Source: Saccharopolyspora endophytica (lineage in GTDB: Bacteria > Actinomycetota > Actinomycetes > Mycobacteriales > Pseudonocardiaceae). Taken from it: a DNA stretch of 64,000 nucleotides. This document shows, piece by piece, positions 16,590-29,370 of this stretch (position 1 is its first letter; each line of letters begins with the position of its first letter). The translations under genes were made by a program, and so were the position numbers. The DNA lies in assembly GCF_018070075.1 (NCBI RefSeq), contig NZ_JAGPXE010000003.1:372001-436000 (forward strand), written 5' to 3'. The notes under the pieces are model-generated. The model searched no databases, had not been told where the DNA came from, and was given only the letters and a program-made list of their open reading frames with translations.

Positions 16590-17486
16590 TCAGTGCTGTT
16601 GCCCACGGACCGAAGACCCTGTTTCGCCCACCCGTTCGCGTTGCGGCTCGACCACGTACCGAGGGTCGCGGGCCGTCTCGCGGCCGGCTTCGAAGACGCC
16701 GAAGCGAGTCGCGATCGCCCCGAGGGTCAGGCACCCGCCTGCCGCGATCGCCGCCGCGCGACTGCGTCCGGCCACCAGCGCGAGCCCGGCGCCCACCGCG
16801 GTGGCCGCTCGCGCCGTTCGCAGCACCCTACCCGCGCGCCCGGTGCGGTAGGCCTCAGCCGCCAGCCCGAGCCGGGACTCCATGCGCCTGCTCGCGGCCA
16901 GCTCCAGCACCGATCCGGCCACCGCCATCCGCCGCGCGGGCCCGGACTCGGCGGGGGCGGCCACCATGCCCACCGCCCCCGCGCTGGACACAGCGCTCCC
17001 GGCGAACACGAACGGGAGCTCCCGGTAGCCCTCGTGCCAGCCCGGCACGGCCGTGTCGGACAGCAGCACGGCGGTGTAGGTGGTCATGGCCGGTGCGATC
17101 ACGCCCGCCACCACCCCGGCCGCGCGGCCGGGCAGCGGGAGCAGACCGGTGAGCTCGCTGGCCGCGGCAGCTCCGGCCAGGCCCGAGAACGGCGCGAGGA
17201 TCCACGATCCGACGCTCAGCGGCGAGGTCGGCTTGAGCACCCGCAGCATGGCCAGGAACCGCATCGGACGCCCCAGGTCGTGCACCAGGAAGCCGACGCT
17301 GGTGGTCGCGCCCACCGCCGCCGCCAGCCTGCCCGCGCGGGCCAGCCGCGGCCGTCCGGTGAGCTCGGCCAGCAGCGCCATCGTCGACGACGCCCCGGCC
17401 ATCCCGCCGAGGTAGAGGTAGGCGGGCACGTCCGGGACCTTCCACACCGGCTCCTTGAGGACCGGGCGGCCGTAGTAGAAGGTCAC
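16590..17486 (-). CDS. NrfD-type membrane subunit of formate dehydrogenase
   Basis: A 298-residue membrane protein of the NrfD/PsrC family. It begins VTFYYGRPVLKEPVWKVP and has about eight hydrophobic spans, with the family's YLYLGGMAGAS block in the first. It replaces the cytochrome-b FdnI as anchor and passes electrons to the quinone pool. The GTG start overlaps the stop of the iron-sulfur subunit by two bases, and GGAGGAG lies upstream. It is the third gene of the operon. Confidence 0.88.
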   Translation of the reverse strand: MTFYYGRPVLKEPVWKVPDVPAYLYLGGMAGASSTMALLAELTGRPRLARAGRLAAAVGATTSVGFLVHDLGRPMRFLAMLRVLKPTSPLSVGSWILAPFSGLAGAAAASELTGLLPLPGRAAGVVAGVIAPAMTTYTAVLLSDTAVPGWHEGYRELPFVFAGSAVSSAGAVGMVAAPAESGPARRMAVAGSVLELAASRRMESRLGLAAEAYRTGRAGRVLRTARAATAVGAGLALVAGRSRAAAIAAGGCLTLGAIATRFGVFEAGRETARDPRYVVEPQRERVGETGSSVRGQQH

Positions 17487-18346
17487 CTTCTCCTCCCGAG
17501 GAACGACCCGGCGATGAGCGCGGCGGCGGTGAGCGCGCCCGCGGCCGCGTGCCGCCACATCGAGGGCAGGTCGCGCGTGGTGACCACGGGATCGGGTGGC
17601 AGGCCGTAGACCTCGGGGTCGTCGAGCAGCAGGAAGAACGCCCCGTCTCCCCCGACGCCGTCGGTGGGCTCGTGGCCGTAGAGGCGGGCGCTGGTCACGC
17701 CCTGCTCGTGCAGTTCGTCGACCCGCATCGCGGCGCGTTCGCGCAGCTCGTCGAGGGGGCCGTACTGGATGGACTCGGTCGGGCAGGCGGTAGCGCAGGC
17801 GGGCATCAGCCCGGCTCCGAGGCGGTCCTGGCACATCGTGCACTTGGCGGCTCCGCCGGTGTCCGGACGGATGTCGATCACGCCGTAGGGGCAGGCCGGG
17901 ACGCAGTAGCCGCAGCCGTTGCACACGTCGTCCTGCACCAGCACCGTGCCGTGCTCGGTGCGGATCAGCGCCCCGGTCGGGCACACGTCCAGGCAGGCCG
18001 CGTGCGTGCAGTGCTTGCACACGTCGGAGGACATCAGCCAGCGCACCTGCTGCTCGTCCGGTGCGCCGAACTCGGGCATGCCCAGCTCGGCGGGGGTGCC
18101 GCTCTGCTCGACGAAGGCCACGTGCCGCCAGGTCGTGCCGCTGAGCGCCTCGGTGTTGTCGTAGGACATGCCGGTGAGGTCCATGCCGTCCTCGGGCAGC
18201 AGGTTCCACTGCTTGCAGGCGACCTCGCAGGCCTTGCAGCCGATGCACACGCTGGTGTCGGTGAAGAAGCCGGCGCGGGGCTGCGGCGGGTAGCCGGTCT
18301 CCCCCGCCGGGTCGGGCAGCGGTCCGGACAGCCGGTTGACGGTCAC
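17483..18346 (-). CDS. fdnH: Formate dehydrogenase iron-sulfur subunit
   Basis: A 287-residue four-cluster ferredoxin subunit. Cysteine groups are visible as CIGCKACEVAC, CKHCTHAACLDVC, CNGCGYCVPAC and CTMCQDRL...CATAC. A C-terminal membrane segment (about residues 262-282) anchors it, as in FdnH. It carries electrons from the catalytic subunit to the NrfD subunit. GTG start with AGGAGG six bases upstream. The start codon sits two bases after the stop of the catalytic gene. Confidence 0.93.
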   Translation of the reverse strand: MTVNRLSGPLPDPAGETGYPPQPRAGFFTDTSVCIGCKACEVACKQWNLLPEDGMDLTGMSYDNTEALSGTTWRHVAFVEQSGTPAELGMPEFGAPDEQQVRWLMSSDVCKHCTHAACLDVCPTGALIRTEHGTVLVQDDVCNGCGYCVPACPYGVIDIRPDTGGAAKCTMCQDRLGAGLMPACATACPTESIQYGPLDELRERAAMRVDELHEQGVTSARLYGHEPTDGVGGDGAFFLLLDDPEVYGLPPDPVVTTRDLPSMWRHAAAGALTAAALIAGSFLGRRR

Positions 18347-18348
18347 GT

Positions 18349-21300
18349 TCAGCCTCCTGCCTGTCTGGGGTCGTCGGAGTGCTCGGTCCCGGTGCGCTCG
18401 TCGATGCCCGCGCGGTCGCGGTACTCGGCGACCAGGCGGTTGAGCGCGGCCGCGCGCGGTCGCCGCCCCGGCCGGATGTCGCAAGCCCCGGCCTTGGTCT
18501 CCATGATGTGCACGTTGGGGTCCAGCGCCACGCCGATGAGTTCGTTGGCGGCGTCCCCGGTGGTCAGCCCGTTGGGCCCCCAATGCCAGGGGATGCCGAT
18601 CTGGTGCAGGGTGCGGCCGGCGACCCGCAGCGGGAGCATCCGCTCGGTGACCATCACCCGGGCTTCGATGGCGCTGCGCGCGGTGATCACGGTGGCCCAG
18701 TCCCCGTGCTCCAGGCCGCGTTCGGCGGCCAGCTGCGGGGAGACCTCCACGAACAGGGCGGGCGCGAGTTCGCTGAGGTGCCGCAGCCAGCGGCTCATCC
18801 CGCCGGCCGTGTGGTGCTCGGTGAGCCGGAACGTGGTGAACACGTACGGGAAGACCTCGCTGCCGGTTTCGCCCGCGCTGGGCTGGTACCGGTTCTCCGG
18901 CCGGGAGTTGATCTGGCGTGCGGGATTGCGCTGCTGGTGGGGGTGCAGCAGGTTGGCGACCGGGGATTCCTGCGGCTCGTAGTGCGCCGGGAACGGGCCG
19001 TCGACGAGCCCCGCGGGCACGTAGAGCCAGCCGCGCCCGTCGCTCTGCATGATGAACGGTTCGGTGCCCGCGATGCCCTCCGGCCCGACGGTTCCGTTCT
19101 CGGGCCGGTAGTCGGGGCGCTTGGTCTTGTCGAAGTCGGGGACGTCGTGGCCAGTCCACTCGCCGCGTTCGGCGTCCCACCACACGTAGGCCTTGCGCTC
19201 GCTCCACGGGCGGCCCTCGGGGTCGGCCGAGGCGCGGTTGTAGAGGATGCGCCGGTTGGCCGGCCACGCCCAGCCCCACTCGGGTGCCACGCGGCTCTGC
19301 TGGTGGCCGGGTGTGCGGCGGGCGGACTGGTTGACGCCGTCGGCGGTGACGCCGCAGTAGATCCAGCAGCCGCAGCTGGTGGAGCCGTCGGGGCGCAGCT
19401 GCGGGTAGGCCGACAGCGGGTCGCCGTTGCGGTCGTGGCCGTTGATCTCGGCGAGCACGGCTTCGGCGCTGGGCTCGTCGATGTCGCCATGGGTCGGGTA
19501 GTCCCAGGTCAGCTCCAGCAGGGCGCGGTCGCGCTCGGTCTCGCCGCTGATTCTGTCGCGGATGCGGCGGCCGAGGTGGTAGTAGAACCACAGGTCGCTG
19601 CGCTGGTCATCGGTGGGTTCGACGGCCTTGTGGTGCCACTGCAGGAGCCGCTGGGTGTTGGTGAAGGTGCCGTCCTTCTCGGTGTGCGAGGCGGCGGGCA
19701 GGAAGAAGACCTCGGTGCCGATGTCGGCGGTGCGCATCTCGCCGGTCTCGATCTCGGGGCCGTCCTTCCAGAAGGTGGCGGTCTCGATCATGTTGAGGTC
19801 GCGCACCACCAGCCAGTCCAGCGCGGCCAGGCCCATGCGCTGCTGGCGCGCGTTGGCGGTGCCCACGGCGGGGTTCTCGCCGATGACGAAGTAGCCCTTG
19901 CAGCGGCCCTCGATCTGGTCGAGGACGGTCTGGAAGGTGCCGTGGTCGCCGGTGAGCCGGGGCAGCCGGTCGAAGCAGAAGTCGTTGTCGGCGGTAGCGT
20001 GCTCGCCCCACCAGGCCTTGAGCAGGCTGACCAGGTAGGAGCGGATGTTGGCCCAATAGCCGCAGGCGTGCTCGTCGTCGGCGACGAAGGACTCCAGGTC
20101 GGTGTCGGTGTGGGCGTGCGGCATCGGGATGTAGCCGGGCAGCAGGTTGAACAGGGTCGGGATGTCGGTGGAGCCCTGGATGCTGGCGTGCCCGCGCAGG
20201 GCGAGGATGCCGCCGCCGGGCCTGCCGATGTTGCCCAGCAGCAGCTGCAGGATCGAGGCCGCCCGGATGTACTGCGCTCCGACGGTGTGGTGGGTCCAGC
20301 CCACGGCGTAGGCGATGGCCGCGGTGCGGTCGCGTCCGGAGTTGGTGACGAGCCGGTCGGCGACCCAGGCGAAGTCGTCCTGGGAGATCCCGCAGATCTC
20401 CTCCACCACGTCCGGGGTGTAGCGGGCGTAGTGCCGCTTGAGCAGCTGGAACACGCAGCGCGGGTGTTGCAGCGTGGGGTCGGATTCTGGGTGGCCGTGG
20501 TAGAGGGGCCCGCCGGAGCCGGCGCGCTCGGGTCGGCTGGTGTCGCGCTCGCGGCCGTGCTCGGTGCTGGGAGCGCGCTCGGGGCCGTGCCCGCCGACGG
20601 GCGGGACGGCGTAGCTGCCCTGGTACTGCCACGAGCTGGTCTCGTAGGTGCCGGCGTCGGGGTCGAAGCCGGAGAACACGCCGTCGAGGTCCTCGGTGTC
20701 GCGGAAGTCCTCGCCGACGATCATCGCGGCGTTGGTGTAGTTGACGACGTAGTCGTGGAAGTGGGCCTCGCGGGTCAGCACGTGGTTGATCAGCCCTCCG
20801 AGGAAGGCGATGTCGCTCCCGGCCCGCAGCGCGACGTGCTTGTGCGCCACCGCCGAGGTGCGCGTGTAGCGCGGGTCGACGTGGATGATCGTGGCGCCGC
20901 GCTTCTTGGCCTCCATGACCCACTGGAACCCCACCGGGTGGGCTTCGGCCATGTTGGAGCCCTGGATGAGGACGCAGTCCGATTCGGCGAGGTCCTGCTG
21001 GAAGGTGGTGGCGCCGCCGCGCCCGAAGGAGGCACCCAGACCGGGCACCGTGGAGGAGTGTCAAATGCGGGCCTGGTTCTCCACCTGGATCGCTCCGAGG
21101 GCGGTGTAGAGCTTCTTCATGAGGTAGTTCTCCTCGTTGTCGAGGGTCGCTCCTCCGAGGCTCGCGATGCCCATCGTGCGCCGCAGCGGCCTGCCGTCGG
21201 CGTCGGTGTCCTCCCAGGTGGCGTCCCGGGTGGCCAGCACCCGGTCGGCGATCATGTCCAGCGCGGTGTCCAGGTCGAGGTCTTCCCACTCGGTGCCGTG

Positions 21301-21624
21301 CGGGCGCCGGTAGCGGACCTTGGTCTCGCGCAGCGGTGAGGTGACCAGTTCGCGCGAGGCCGAGCCCTTGGGGCACAGCCGGCCCCGGCTGATCGGCGAG
21401 TCCGGGTCGCCCTCGATCTGGGTGATCCGTCCGCCGGAGGTGTAGATCCGCTGGCCGCAGCCGACCGCGCAGTAGGGGCACACCGAGCGGGTGACGCTGT
21501 CGGCGTCGCTGGTGCGCGCCCGCATCTCGTCGGTGCGCCGGGACCGGGCCGCGGGACCTCGGGCCAGCCGGTCGGGGCCGGTGAGCTGCCGCAGCACCGG
21601 CCAGTTCAGCCACGTGGCCGCCAT
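18349..21624 (-). CDS. fdnG: Selenocysteine-containing formate dehydrogenase, catalytic subunit
   Basis: A 1,091-residue molybdopterin oxidoreductase read through an in-frame UGA at 21061-21063 (residue 188). The N-terminal 4Fe-4S site is C49, C52, C56 and C84. Around the UGA the sequence reads VENQARI-Sec-HSSTVPGLG, matching the ARV-Sec-HGPTV context of E. coli FdnG. The reading frame is intact on both sides and family domains continue without a gap. It oxidises formate, probably on the outer face of the membrane. No classical twin-arginine leader is obvious, although RSRR occurs at residues 27-30. The ATG at 21624 has only a distant GAGGTGGG, so the start could be slightly upstream. Confidence 0.93.
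21031..21063 (-). promoter_or_regulatory. Bacterial SECIS element with UGA-Sec codon
   Basis: UGA (21063-21061) is followed by 11 bases and then the hairpin GGUGCCC-GGUCU-GGGUGCC (21049-21031), a 7-bp stem with two G-U pairs. In E. coli fdhF the SECIS hairpin also begins 11 bases after UGA and also presents GGUCU at its apex, the part read by SelB. Match of spacing and apex was seen directly; function is inferred. Confidence 0.82.
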
Positions 21625-26273: not shown

Positions 26274-26337
26274 TTCCGCAGCGGACGGCGAGGGGCGTTG
26301 GCGGGCGGGGAGGTAGGTGGCTTCCTATGGTGGGGGC

Positions 26338-27621
26338 ATGGGTGATCGGCGGCGTGCTGTTCCGGGGACCGACCGCGTGCTGGCCGATCCGGACGTGGCC
26401 GCGGCGGTGGAGCGCCTGGGGCACCAGCTGGTCGTCCGGACCGTCCGGGAGGTCGCGCAGCGGGCGCGGGACGGGTTGCTGGAGCCGGAGGACGTCGTGG
26501 CGGAAACGCTTGCCGCGCTGCCCCGTTCGGCCTCCGGGATGCGACCTGTGATCAACGCGACCGGCGTGCTGCTGCACACCAACCTCGGGCGGGCACCGCT
26601 GTCGCGCGCGGCGCGCGAGGCGCTCCAGGTGGCGGCGGGCACCACCGACGTGGAACTGGATCTCGACACCGGAGACCGGGGCCGTCGCGGGGCTTCGGCC
26701 GTCGAGGCGCTGCTGGACGCCGTGCCCGGAGCCGAGGACGCGCACCTGGTGAACAACGGCGCGGCGGCGCTGGCCCTGGCGGCCACCGCGCTGGCGGCCG
26801 ACCGGGAGATCGTCCTGGCGCGCGGCGAGATGGTCGAGATCGGCGACGGGTTCCGCATCCCCGACCTGCTCACCTCCACCGGCGCGCGGCTGCGCGAAGT
26901 CGGCACGACCAACCGGGTTCGGCTCGACGACTACCGGCAGGCGCTGGGCGACGACACCGGTTTCGCGCTCAAGATCCATCCGTCGAACTTCGTGATCAGC
27001 GGTTTCACCGCCGAGGTCGGGGTGGCCGAGCTGCGCGAGCTCGACGTGCCGGTGGTGGCCGACATCGGTTCGGGACTGCTGCGTCCGGACCCAGCGCTGC
27101 CCGGAGAACCGGACGCCGCCACGACGCTGGCCGACGGCTCGGACCTGGTCATCGCCAGCGGCGACAAGCTCCTCGGCGGCCCGCAGTGCGGTCTGCTGCT
27201 CGGCCGCGCGGACGTCGTGCAGCGGTTGCGCCGCCATCCGCTGGCTCGCGCGCTGCGAGTCGACAAGTTGACCTTGGCCGCGCTGGAGGCCACCGTGCGC
27301 GGACCGCGCCCGCCGGTCGCCGAGGCCCTGCGCCGCTCCGGCCTGGCCGAACGCGCTGCGGCGCTGGCGGAGTCGCTGGCGGCGGCCGGGATTCCCGCGG
27401 AGGCGGTCGACTCCGGTGCCAGCGTCGGCGGCGGTGGCGCGCCCGGGGTGGTGCTGTCGAGCGCGGCAGTGGCGCTACCCGCGGGGTTCGCCAAGCAGCT
27501 GCGGCTCGGCGATCCGCCGGTGATGGCCCGGGTGGAGCGCAACCGGTGCCTGCTGGACCTGTTCGCCCTCGACCCGGACGACGACGAGGCGTTGCGGCGC
27601 GCGGTGCTGGCCGCGCACTAG
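26338..27621 (+). CDS. selA: L-seryl-tRNA(Sec) selenium transferase
   Basis: A 427-residue PLP enzyme that converts seryl-tRNA(Sec) to selenocysteinyl-tRNA(Sec). Signatures include PVINATGVLLHTNLGRAPLS and the PLP lysine K277 in SGDKLLGGPQCG. ATG 26338 is chosen because TATGGT (26326-26331) sits six bases upstream, suggesting a leaderless start, though no good -35 is seen. A GTG at 26317 would add seven residues. selB starts nine bases after the stop. It supplies charged tRNA for the formate dehydrogenase 5 kb away. Confidence 0.93.
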   Translation: MGDRRRAVPGTDRVLADPDVAAAVERLGHQLVVRTVREVAQRARDGLLEPEDVVAETLAALPRSASGMRPVINATGVLLHTNLGRAPLSRAAREALQVAAGTTDVELDLDTGDRGRRGASAVEALLDAVPGAEDAHLVNNGAAALALAATALAADREIVLARGEMVEIGDGFRIPDLLTSTGARLREVGTTNRVRLDDYRQALGDDTGFALKIHPSNFVISGFTAEVGVAELRELDVPVVADIGSGLLRPDPALPGEPDAATTLADGSDLVIASGDKLLGGPQCGLLLGRADVVQRLRRHPLARALRVDKLTLAALEATVRGPRPPVAEALRRSGLAERAAALAESLAAAGIPAEAVDSGASVGGGGAPGVVLSSAAVALPAGFAKQLRLGDPPVMARVERNRCLLDLFALDPDDDEALRRAVLAAH

Positions 27622-27630
27622 GAGGTGCCC

Positions 27631-29370
27631 ATGCGCGTGGTGGCCACGGCCGGGCACGTCGACCACGGCAAGTCCACGCTGATCCGGCGGCTCACCGGCA
27701 TGGAACCCGACCGGTGGGCGGAGGAACGCCGCCGGGGCCTGACGCTCGACCTCGGCTTCGCCTGGACGGAGCTGGCCGACGGCTGCTCGGTGGCGTTCGT
27801 CGACGTGCCGGGTCACGAGCGGTTCGTGCCGAACATGCTCGCCGGGGTCGGCCCGGTGCCCGCGGTGCTGTTCGTGGTCGCCGCCGACGAGGGCTGGATG
27901 CCGCAGTCCGACGAGCATCTCGACGCGCTGCACGCCCTGGGGGTCTCCGACGGGCTGCTGGTCATCACCCGCAGCGACCTCGCCGACCCCCGCCCCGCCC
28001 TGGAGCAGGCCCGGCGCCGGCTGCGCGGGACGAGCCTGGAGGAGATCCCCCCGGTTCTGGTCAGCGGCCGCACCGGAGCCGGTTTCGACGACCTCGCCGA
28101 GGCCCTGGACGCGATGCTGCACCGGCTTCCTCCCGCCGACGCCGACGCCGACGTGCGGCTGTGGATCGACCGCGCCTTCGTCATCCGAGGCGCGGGCACG
28201 GTCGTGACCGGGACGCTGCAGGGCGGCGAAGTGCGCGTCGGCGACCAGCTGGCCATCACCCCGTCCGGGCTGGACGCCCCGGTGCGGGCGCTGCACGCGC
28301 TGGGCTCCGCCGAGGAGTCGATCTCCGCGCCCGCGCGGGTGGCGGTGAACCTGCGCGGAGTGGACCTCGACCAGGTCCGCCGCGGCCACGCCCTGATCAC
28401 CCCGGGCCGCTGGCTGACCACCGACGTCCTCGACGTGCGCCTGCACCCGACGGCGGACGTGCCGCGAGACCTGGTGCTGCACATCGGTTCCGCGGCCGTG
28501 CCCGCGCGGGTCCGCCCGCTGGGCACCGACACCGCCAGGCTGACGTTGCGGGAGGCGCTGCCGCTGCGGATCGGTGATCGCGCGCTGCTGCGCGACCCCG
28601 GCGGGCACCGGGTGCGCGGCGGGGTCACCGTCCTGGACGTCCGGCCTCCCCCGTTGCGCCGCCGAGGCGCGGCCCGGCTGCGCGCCGACGTCCTCAACGA
28701 CATGGACGGTTCCCCGGACTGGGCCGACGAGCTGCGACGACGCGGCATCGCGCGGGCCGAAGACCTCGCCGCGATGGGCGCCGCCCCGCCGAGCGCGGGT
28801 CCGTGGCTGATGTCCGAGCGGCACCGGTCCGAGCTCGCCGCGAGGCTGCGCGAGGTGTTCGCCGAGCACCGGCGAGCGCACCCGCTGCACGAGGGCATGC
28901 CCTCCGGCGCGGGCACCCGCGCGCTGGACCTCCCGGACCCGGCGCTGCTGCCCGGCATCGCCGCCGAAGCGGGCCTGCACCTGGCTGCCGGCCGGATCAC
29001 CGACGGCACCACGGCCCTGCCCGACCGGGTCGCGCGCGCCGTGGAAGCGGTCCGCAGCGGGCTGCGGGAGCACCCGTTCCGCGCGCCCACCGCCGAGGAG
29101 CTGGCCGAACTCGGCATCGGTGATCGCGAGCTCGCCGCCGCCGAGCGCACCGGCGTGCTGCTGCGGCTGGGCCCGGGACTGGCGCTGCTGCCCGACGCCG
29201 AGCGCACGGCGCTGCCCCGGCTGGCGGAACTGTCCGAGCCCTTCACCCTCAGCGAGGCCAAGCGGGCGCTGGACACCACGCGCCGCGTCGCGGTTCCCTT
29301 GCTGGAGATGCTCGCTCGCCGCGGCCGCACACGCAGGCTCCCGGACGGCACCCACCGCCTGGTGCGCTGA
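27631..29370 (+). CDS. selB: Selenocysteine-specific elongation factor
   Basis: A 579-residue GTPase that brings Sec-tRNA to UGA codons by binding SECIS hairpins. The G1 motif is GHVDHGKST (residues 8-16), G3 is DVPGHE near 58-63, and the G4 position reads TRSDL. Beta-barrel domains follow, then about 250 C-terminal residues of winged helices that recognise the SECIS. ATG 27631 has AGGAG five bases upstream; an in-frame GTG at 27625 overlaps that site. Operon with selA. Confidence 0.94.
   Translation: MRVVATAGHVDHGKSTLIRRLTGMEPDRWAEERRRGLTLDLGFAWTELADGCSVAFVDVPGHERFVPNMLAGVGPVPAVLFVVAADEGWMPQSDEHLDALHALGVSDGLLVITRSDLADPRPALEQARRRLRGTSLEEIPPVLVSGRTGAGFDDLAEALDAMLHRLPPADADADVRLWIDRAFVIRGAGTVVTGTLQGGEVRVGDQLAITPSGLDAPVRALHALGSAEESISAPARVAVNLRGVDLDQVRRGHALITPGRWLTTDVLDVRLHPTADVPRDLVLHIGSAAVPARVRPLGTDTARLTLREALPLRIGDRALLRDPGGHRVRGGVTVLDVRPPPLRRRGAARLRADVLNDMDGSPDWADELRRRGIARAEDLAAMGAAPPSAGPWLMSERHRSELAARLREVFAEHRRAHPLHEGMPSGAGTRALDLPDPALLPGIAAEAGLHLAAGRITDGTTALPDRVARAVEAVRSGLREHPFRAPTAEELAELGIGDRELAAAERTGVLLRLGPGLALLPDAERTALPRLAELSEPFTLSEAKRALDTTRRVAVPLLEMLARRGRTRRLPDGTHRLVR

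Follow-up and report, generated by a model that had tools for sequence, protein, structure and literature searches.

The locus raises the question of whether a UGA codon lying in frame within the gene for the catalytic subunit of a formate dehydrogenase (FDH) is read as selenocysteine (Sec), and if so, what in the message directs that reading. The gene, fdhA, is found in the window, by which we mean the whole stretch of 64,000 nucleotides of Saccharopolyspora endophytica DNA that was analysed (Table 1). An earlier note, made from the letters of this DNA, had placed the UGA and a hairpin at 21031-21063; these coordinates were exact, and the strand, which it had left unnamed, is the minus strand. 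When the TGA is taken as Sec, fdhA is a single open frame, and its translation agrees with a catalytic subunit interrupted at residue 188 in the context QARI-U-HSSTV. Comparison of the joined protein with FDH families, proposed in the same note, gave a match of 1951.4 bits to the NCBIfam model NF041513 (formate_DH_Act; cut-off 1400), which spans residues 6-1071 of the protein and positions 4-1067 of the 1067 in the profile, that is, its whole length. The protein also scores 941.4 bits against TIGR01553, the FDH-N alpha subunit, above the cut-off of 814.2. Its relatives in the PDB, 8cm4 and 1kqf among them, include FDHs that were deposited as selenocysteine-containing, and the UGA aligns with Cys or Sec of homologues. 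The best named relatives of fdhA are from Saccharopolyspora.

Table 1. Positions of the features discussed, numbered from the first letter of the window.
Feature	Position	Strand	Basis
fdhA, formate dehydrogenase alpha subunit	18349..21624	-	1,091 residues with Sec188, frame read through internal TGA
Codon -1, ATT (Ile187)	21064..21066	-	strongest synonymous bias among 77 Sec rows
In-frame TGA, predicted Sec codon 188	21061..21063	-	TGA or TAG in 76 of 80 kept relatives
Spacer of 11 bases, CACTCCTCCAC	21050..21060	-	
Predicted SECIS hairpin, 7 bp stem (two G-U pairs), 5-nt loop	21031..21049	-	folding; silent-site covariation
First stem arm, GGTGCCC	21043..21049	-	
Apical loop, GGUCU	21038..21042	-	77 Sec rows: GGTCT 59, AGTCT 14, AGTTT 4
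Second stem arm, GGGTGCC	21031..21037	-	
fdhB, 4Fe-4S electron-transfer subunit	17483..18346	-	GTG start; Fer4 domains; hydrophobic C-terminal stretch by eye
fdhC, NrfD-like membrane subunit	16590..17486	-	PF03916; GTG start overlaps fdhB stop
selA, L-seryl-tRNA(Sec) selenium transferase	26317..27621	+	405 bits, cut-off 267.9
selB, Sec-specific elongation factor	27625..29370	+	268 bits, cut-off 242.25; C-terminal winged helix SelB-wing_3

With a probability of about 96%, we read UGA188 of fdhA as recoded to Sec under the direction of a SECIS-type hairpin, in an FDH of the actinobacterial FdhABC type. The earlier note's identification of a selenocysteine FDH is thus supported, on the strength of the family match, the sel genes, relatives with UGA or UAG at the same site, tRNA-Sec with a CTA anticodon and covariation of the hairpin at silent sites.

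The relatives were the best 80 of at least 589 places in named genomes, with identities of 66-95% in the best segment. At the Sec site these carry TGA in 73 cases, TAG in three and TGC (Cys) in four, so that with the window included the counts are 74, 3 and 4 over 81 rows. In 76 of the 80 a stop codon is followed, at the same 11-nt spacing, by a hairpin shaped like that of the window. The three TAG rows come from Blastococcus (L074, L084) and Geodermatophilus (L095) and are otherwise alike in gene and hairpin; all three genomes have a tRNA-Sec match with the anticodon CTA, which ARAGORN calls tRNA-Pyl. Cys homologues that have no hairpin at the site, named beforehand as an observation that would speak against Sec, do occur, but they point the opposite way. 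In three of the four genomes, of which at least L101 is a metagenome-assembled draft, neither tRNA-Sec nor selA gave a match over the cut-off; the fourth, Actinomadura logoneensis, has tRNA-Sec and selA together with a second fdhA that contains an in-frame TGA.

Among the 30 genomes of the phylum sample with the best fdhA matches, tRNA-Sec was found in 26 of the 28 with UGA and in neither of the two with Cys; the two UGA genomes lacking a match are drafts in hundreds of contigs. Across the sample, a tRNA-Sec over the family cut-off (E <= 1e-8) was present in 237 of 396 Actinomycetota genomes, so the earlier statement that Sec proteins are rare in actinobacteria finds no support. About 200 of these 237 matches are strong (E <= 1e-10, by a count of those listed), and some of the weak ones are false, such as a 49.7-bit match in L178 that is a tRNA-Ser by ARAGORN. 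The draft of Saccharomonospora halophila 8 (L070, L240) has an fdhA with TGA and hairpin, and a tRNA-Sec on the same contig. A selA over the cut-off was not found in this draft, where it may fall in a gap, and the organism is listed as having an orphan SelD in Table 1 of PMC5029168, as far as the available part of that paper goes.

The hairpin itself, GGUGCCC-GGUCU-GGGUGCC, begins 11 bases past the UGA, as the note had it, and the proposed likeness to E. coli fdhF in spacing and GGUCU apex, with a different stem, agrees with the fdhF record. A 41-base stretch of fdhF was present in 5,368 of 5,426 E. coli genomes, with fdhF annotated in the three rows shown, and one such record reads GTC TGA CACGGCCCATC GGTTGCAGGTCTGCACC, giving the 11 bases and the GGTCT. 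The E. coli fdhF hairpin has a bulged U in its upper stem; the predicted stem of the window is continuous, with a U-A or U-G pair at the level of that U, and offers it no clear counterpart. In the folding of the RNA, suggested as a further check, single-sequence predictions weakly favour the hairpin when it is taken alone (20 nt, z -2.63, 4 of 200 shuffles equally stable; for a 38-nt fold, z -1.17 and 27 of 200), but once the UGA and more flank are included another fold wins (z 0.03). The predicted probability of the hairpin is 0.95 when folding starts at position +12, 0.13 with 12 upstream bases and 0.025 with 30, and we infer that the competing upstream fold is relieved by the ribosome.

Because single-sequence folding is weak, the case for the hairpin rests on comparison, and because the hairpin sits within codons, covariation was examined at silent positions only. 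This used the 77 Sec rows, with 46,665 fourfold-degenerate column pairs from the same gene, rows and phylogeny as controls. The third bases of Val +5 and Gly +9, which face each other in the stem, form a standard pair in all 77 rows through five pair types (T-A 39, C-G 21, T-G 9, G-C 5, G-T 3). This pair ranks first of the 46,665 by both excess pairing and mutual information, and is the sole one with at least four pair types among the three column pairs that are fully paired. In the 38 distinct sequences, paired cells make up 93.2%, compared with 33.8-63.5% when the partner is slid, and the outermost stem pair is unpaired in 18 of them. Two of five measures lie within the shuffles (changes on both sides, 182 of 500 equally high; further pair types, 118 of 500), since changes of both partners are confined to two of the seven pairs. 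In the loop, the codon for Gly or Ser ends in T in 77 of 77 rows, where GGT makes up 8.6% of the Gly codons of these genes and AGT 3.6% of their Ser codons. When folding is confined to the bases from +12 on, the mean pair probability of the hairpin is 0 in all four Cys rows; of the 77 Sec rows, 75 reach 0.5 or more and two stay below 0.5 even so. The hairpin about 11 nt past the UGA, the GU in its apical loop and the covariation are those expected of a bacterial SECIS, and we regard the comparison of sequences as decisive for the predicted hairpin being real.

A covariance model of the hairpin, built from fdhA only and so leaving room for other kinds of selenoprotein, found a single place in the genome with E <= 1, that of fdhA; of 9,357 candidates from the first look, 150 were scored. 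Run on the window alone, the model gave two further places at chance level (E 0.27 and 0.9). A search of the genome for FDH genes with an in-frame TGA likewise found one Sec FDH gene. The region C23:261667-263832 was considered as a second selenoprotein of the genome and rejected, because its TGA precedes the gene and the site is Cys, in an FCMSS context.

The genome contains selA, selB, selC and selD, a complete bacterial set for Sec decoding. The sel genes lie at two sites, selA and selB beside fdhA, and selC and selD side by side at G000:C23:164124-165167, on the contig of fdhA and about 225 kb from it; selC is a tRNA-Sec match of 75.6 bits with the anticodon UCA. A further gene, fdhD, is located elsewhere in the genome. 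SelD is the source of selenophosphate, and SelA turns Ser-tRNA(Sec) into Sec-tRNA(Sec). At codon 188 the hairpin would then bind SelB-GTP-Sec-tRNA(Sec), and Sec would be inserted instead of termination, yielding the full alpha subunit of 1,091 residues. This Sec would ligate the metal of a pterin cofactor, probably molybdenum or tungsten. Formate would be oxidised to CO2 and the electrons passed via FdhB to the NrfD-like FdhC, probably on to menaquinone. In E. coli FDH-N, the gamma subunit is a cytochrome b556 and the alpha subunit is exported by the twin-arginine route. No twin-arginine signal with a hydrophobic stretch was seen by eye at the N-terminus of FdhA, and the alpha subunit of the window is probably cytoplasmic. 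FdhB scores 164 bits against TIGR01582 (FDH-N beta), below its cut-off of 334.7, and the membrane subunit is an NrfD protein (PF03916), so these subunits depart from those of the E. coli FDH-N complex. The enzyme may nevertheless work like FDH-N, though it is not filed as such a complex.

Three other accounts of the UGA can be set against recoding to Sec. The first holds that the codon ordinarily stands for Cys or some other residue and became UGA through a nonsense mutation or an error in sequencing; it draws on the TGC found in four of the 80 kept relatives. However, TGA stands at this site in 73 of them and TAG in three, the frame is intact on both sides of the UGA, the hairpin goes with the stop codon and is absent in the four Cys rows, and the sel genes are all present; to judge from the relatives, this account is already refuted, and we give it practically no weight. 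A true stop with a regulatory role, yielding a product of 187 residues and a restart at the GTG at 21048, fares hardly better and seems to us very improbable. A start-to-stop frame from that GTG does exist and would encode 899 residues, but such a protein would have neither the cofactor-ligating residue nor the N-terminal Fe4S4 domain, and the covarying hairpin, the UAG variants and the sel genes would be left unexplained. The last account accepts recoding and supposes that the residue is partly Cys, inserted by way of the Sec machinery under selenium shortage. The natural Cys homologues indicate that Cys is tolerated at this position, whereas in a related actinobacterium, Actinomycetospora chiangmaiensis, addition of selenite made the accumulation of formic acid almost negligible (PMC7176365, in the part available), and we consider partial Cys improbable, if less so than the preceding two.

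A scan for synonymous bias was made over 1,030 codon columns, each represented in 60 or more Sec rows. Biased columns from -217 to -226 were ignored since they lie before the start codon, Sec being residue 188. The strongest bias falls not in the hairpin (columns +5, +7 and +9, z 20.0, 17.4 and 11.1) but on codon -1, immediately before the Sec codon (z 35.6). This codon is ATT in 51, GTT in 18, ATA in seven and ATC in one (L085) of the 77 Sec rows. AUU, GUU or AUA is thus used in 76 of 77, while elsewhere in those genes ATC accounts for 97.0% of Ile codons, ATT for 2.2% and ATA for 0.9%, and for Val, GTT for 2.35% and GTA for 2.0%. A or T occupies the third base in 6.1% of cases in the mean column, 98.7% at codon -1, 100% at the loop codon +7 and 62% in the column ranking next. 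At codon -1 the four Cys rows carry GTC or GTG, and the base before the terminal TGA of the same genes is G in 24, C in 20, A in 15 and T in three (n=62). The fourth most biased of the 1,030 columns is the His codon at +41 after Sec (CAT 45, CAC 32 in the 77 Sec rows).

A further 69 loci were drawn from the phylum sample as a second set, 29 according to rank and 40, more distant, by hand selection; this set may share species with the first. The rows are the window and L022-L101 for the first set, and L110-L138 and L180-L219 for the second. Its 67 Sec rows have ATA in 42, ATT in 12, GTT in eight, TTA in one, ATC in three and ATG in one, so that codon -1 ends in A or T in 63 of 67 and is AUU, GUU or AUA in 62; over these frames as a whole, codons ending in A or T make up 18.6% for Ile and 10.3% for Val. 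A plasmid sample was also examined, comprising 18 records picked by hand among 40 listed of 148 found, of which 17 are from Pseudomonadota. Thirteen of these have Sec, preceded by GTC in 13 of 13, or 14 of 14 with E. coli fdhF, although these 14 genes are not 14 independent events, several being close relatives. The four with Cys are preceded by GTC, CTG, CTC and TTA, and the lone actinobacterium of the sample has Cys preceded by GTC. A plasmid of the alphaproteobacterium Indioceanicola profundi (L221) carries a hairpin of the actinobacterial type, GGTGCCCAGTCTGGGCGCC, yet the proteobacterial GTC. Its fdhA is 49.6% identical to that of the window over 95% of the length, and perhaps reflects transfer between phyla.

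The base 5′ of the Sec codon may be a selected, lineage-specific recoding element (U or A in Actinomycetota, C in Pseudomonadota) that favours Sec over termination and is under almost as tight a constraint as the U in the loop of the SECIS. We propose this tentatively, at somewhat short of even odds, and its mode of action, in the ribosomal P site or on the competition with release factor 2, is conjecture. Two other causes of the bias deserve weighing. AUU, GUU and AUA might act as slow, rare codons at which a pausing ribosome lets the hairpin refold, the identity of the base being irrelevant, and all three are indeed rare in these G+C-rich genes. Such pausing fits worse than base identity, because GTA is just as rare yet is used in none of the 26 Val cases, and because the A+T-richer rows L211-L219 keep A in nine of nine although ATA is not rare there (in L218, Ile codons ending in T, C and A number 11, 4 and 8); moreover, GTC, the codon of the sampled Pseudomonadota, is not among their rare codons. 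We consider it doubtful. Somewhat less likely again is that U or A is kept since folds competing with the hairpin would gain from a C or G there. Changing the base to C in silico, in eight Saccharopolyspora sequences with three stretch lengths each, lowered the predicted hairpin probability in 17 of 24 comparisons, but by at most about 0.14, while it rose in five (by up to 0.20) and was unchanged in two, several of the sequences being alike. With an effect so small and mixed in sign, folding is a weak explanation that also leaves the C of Pseudomonadota unaccounted for; the modelled effect does not explain the bias, nor is it enough to exclude folding entirely.

Full-text searches on upstream context and SECIS consensus, mostly of literature outside subscription journals, returned no report of a bias at codon -1, which is weak evidence of novelty, and the available portions of PMC4513850, PMC3834832, PMC12013277 and PMC13188914 make no mention of it. 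The recent bacterial Sec predictor deep-Sep, as described in the accessible text of PMC12013277, scores 300 nt downstream of the UGA only. If the proposal holds, a lineage-specific upstream base would be a cheap added feature for selenoprotein gene finding, and would offer a lead, open to testing, on how a Sec UGA is distinguished from a stop on the ribosome. The expectation that automatic annotation would split the gene in two draws partial support from a 2020 paper that gives the accession 'n.a.' for two membrane-bound alpha subunits of A. chiangmaiensis (PMC7176365, from the portion available), but a full-length model, NF041513, exists. In annotated records from proteobacteria, five fdnG genes with Sec are each entered as one gene across the TGA.

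Compared with the E. coli enzymes, the window shares the 11-nt spacer and GGUCU loop of fdhF and a UGA context similar to those of FdnG and FdhF. It differs in the sequence of the stem, in having ATT before the UGA where fdhF and a plasmid-borne fdnG have GTC, and in a membrane subunit that is NrfD-like rather than cytochrome b556. Closer counterparts are found in actinobacteria, here as given in the available parts of the papers cited. Sec is encoded by UAG in Geodermatophilaceae (PMC5330540, citing its reference 56), as in L074, L084 and L095, in contrast to the UGA and UCA anticodon of the window. Corynebacterium aurimucosum has a Sec-FDH with selABCD (PMC2830990). In Streptomyces incarnatus NRRL8089, as in the window, the UGA of the Sec-FDH gene is directly followed by a SECIS and the genome contains selABCD, but these genes are clustered near the FDH gene (PMC4498112), unlike the distant selC and selD here. 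The FDH1 of A. chiangmaiensis DSM 45062 has a Sec alpha subunit of 1,078 residues, against 1,091 in the window, and its fdhA, fdhB and fdhC are clustered with selA and selB (PMC7176365), whereas in the window selAB lies about 5 kb from fdhA, on the opposite strand and with other genes between. That strain has three Sec-containing FDH systems compared with the one gene found here; its selenium-dependent removal of formate was measured, and FdhA, SelA, SelB and SelD were detected (PMC7176365). A Sec FDH with a recoding hairpin is thus a known arrangement in actinobacteria, of which this gene is one more case, and it lends further weight to the view that selenocysteine serves many soil actinobacteria in formate oxidation.
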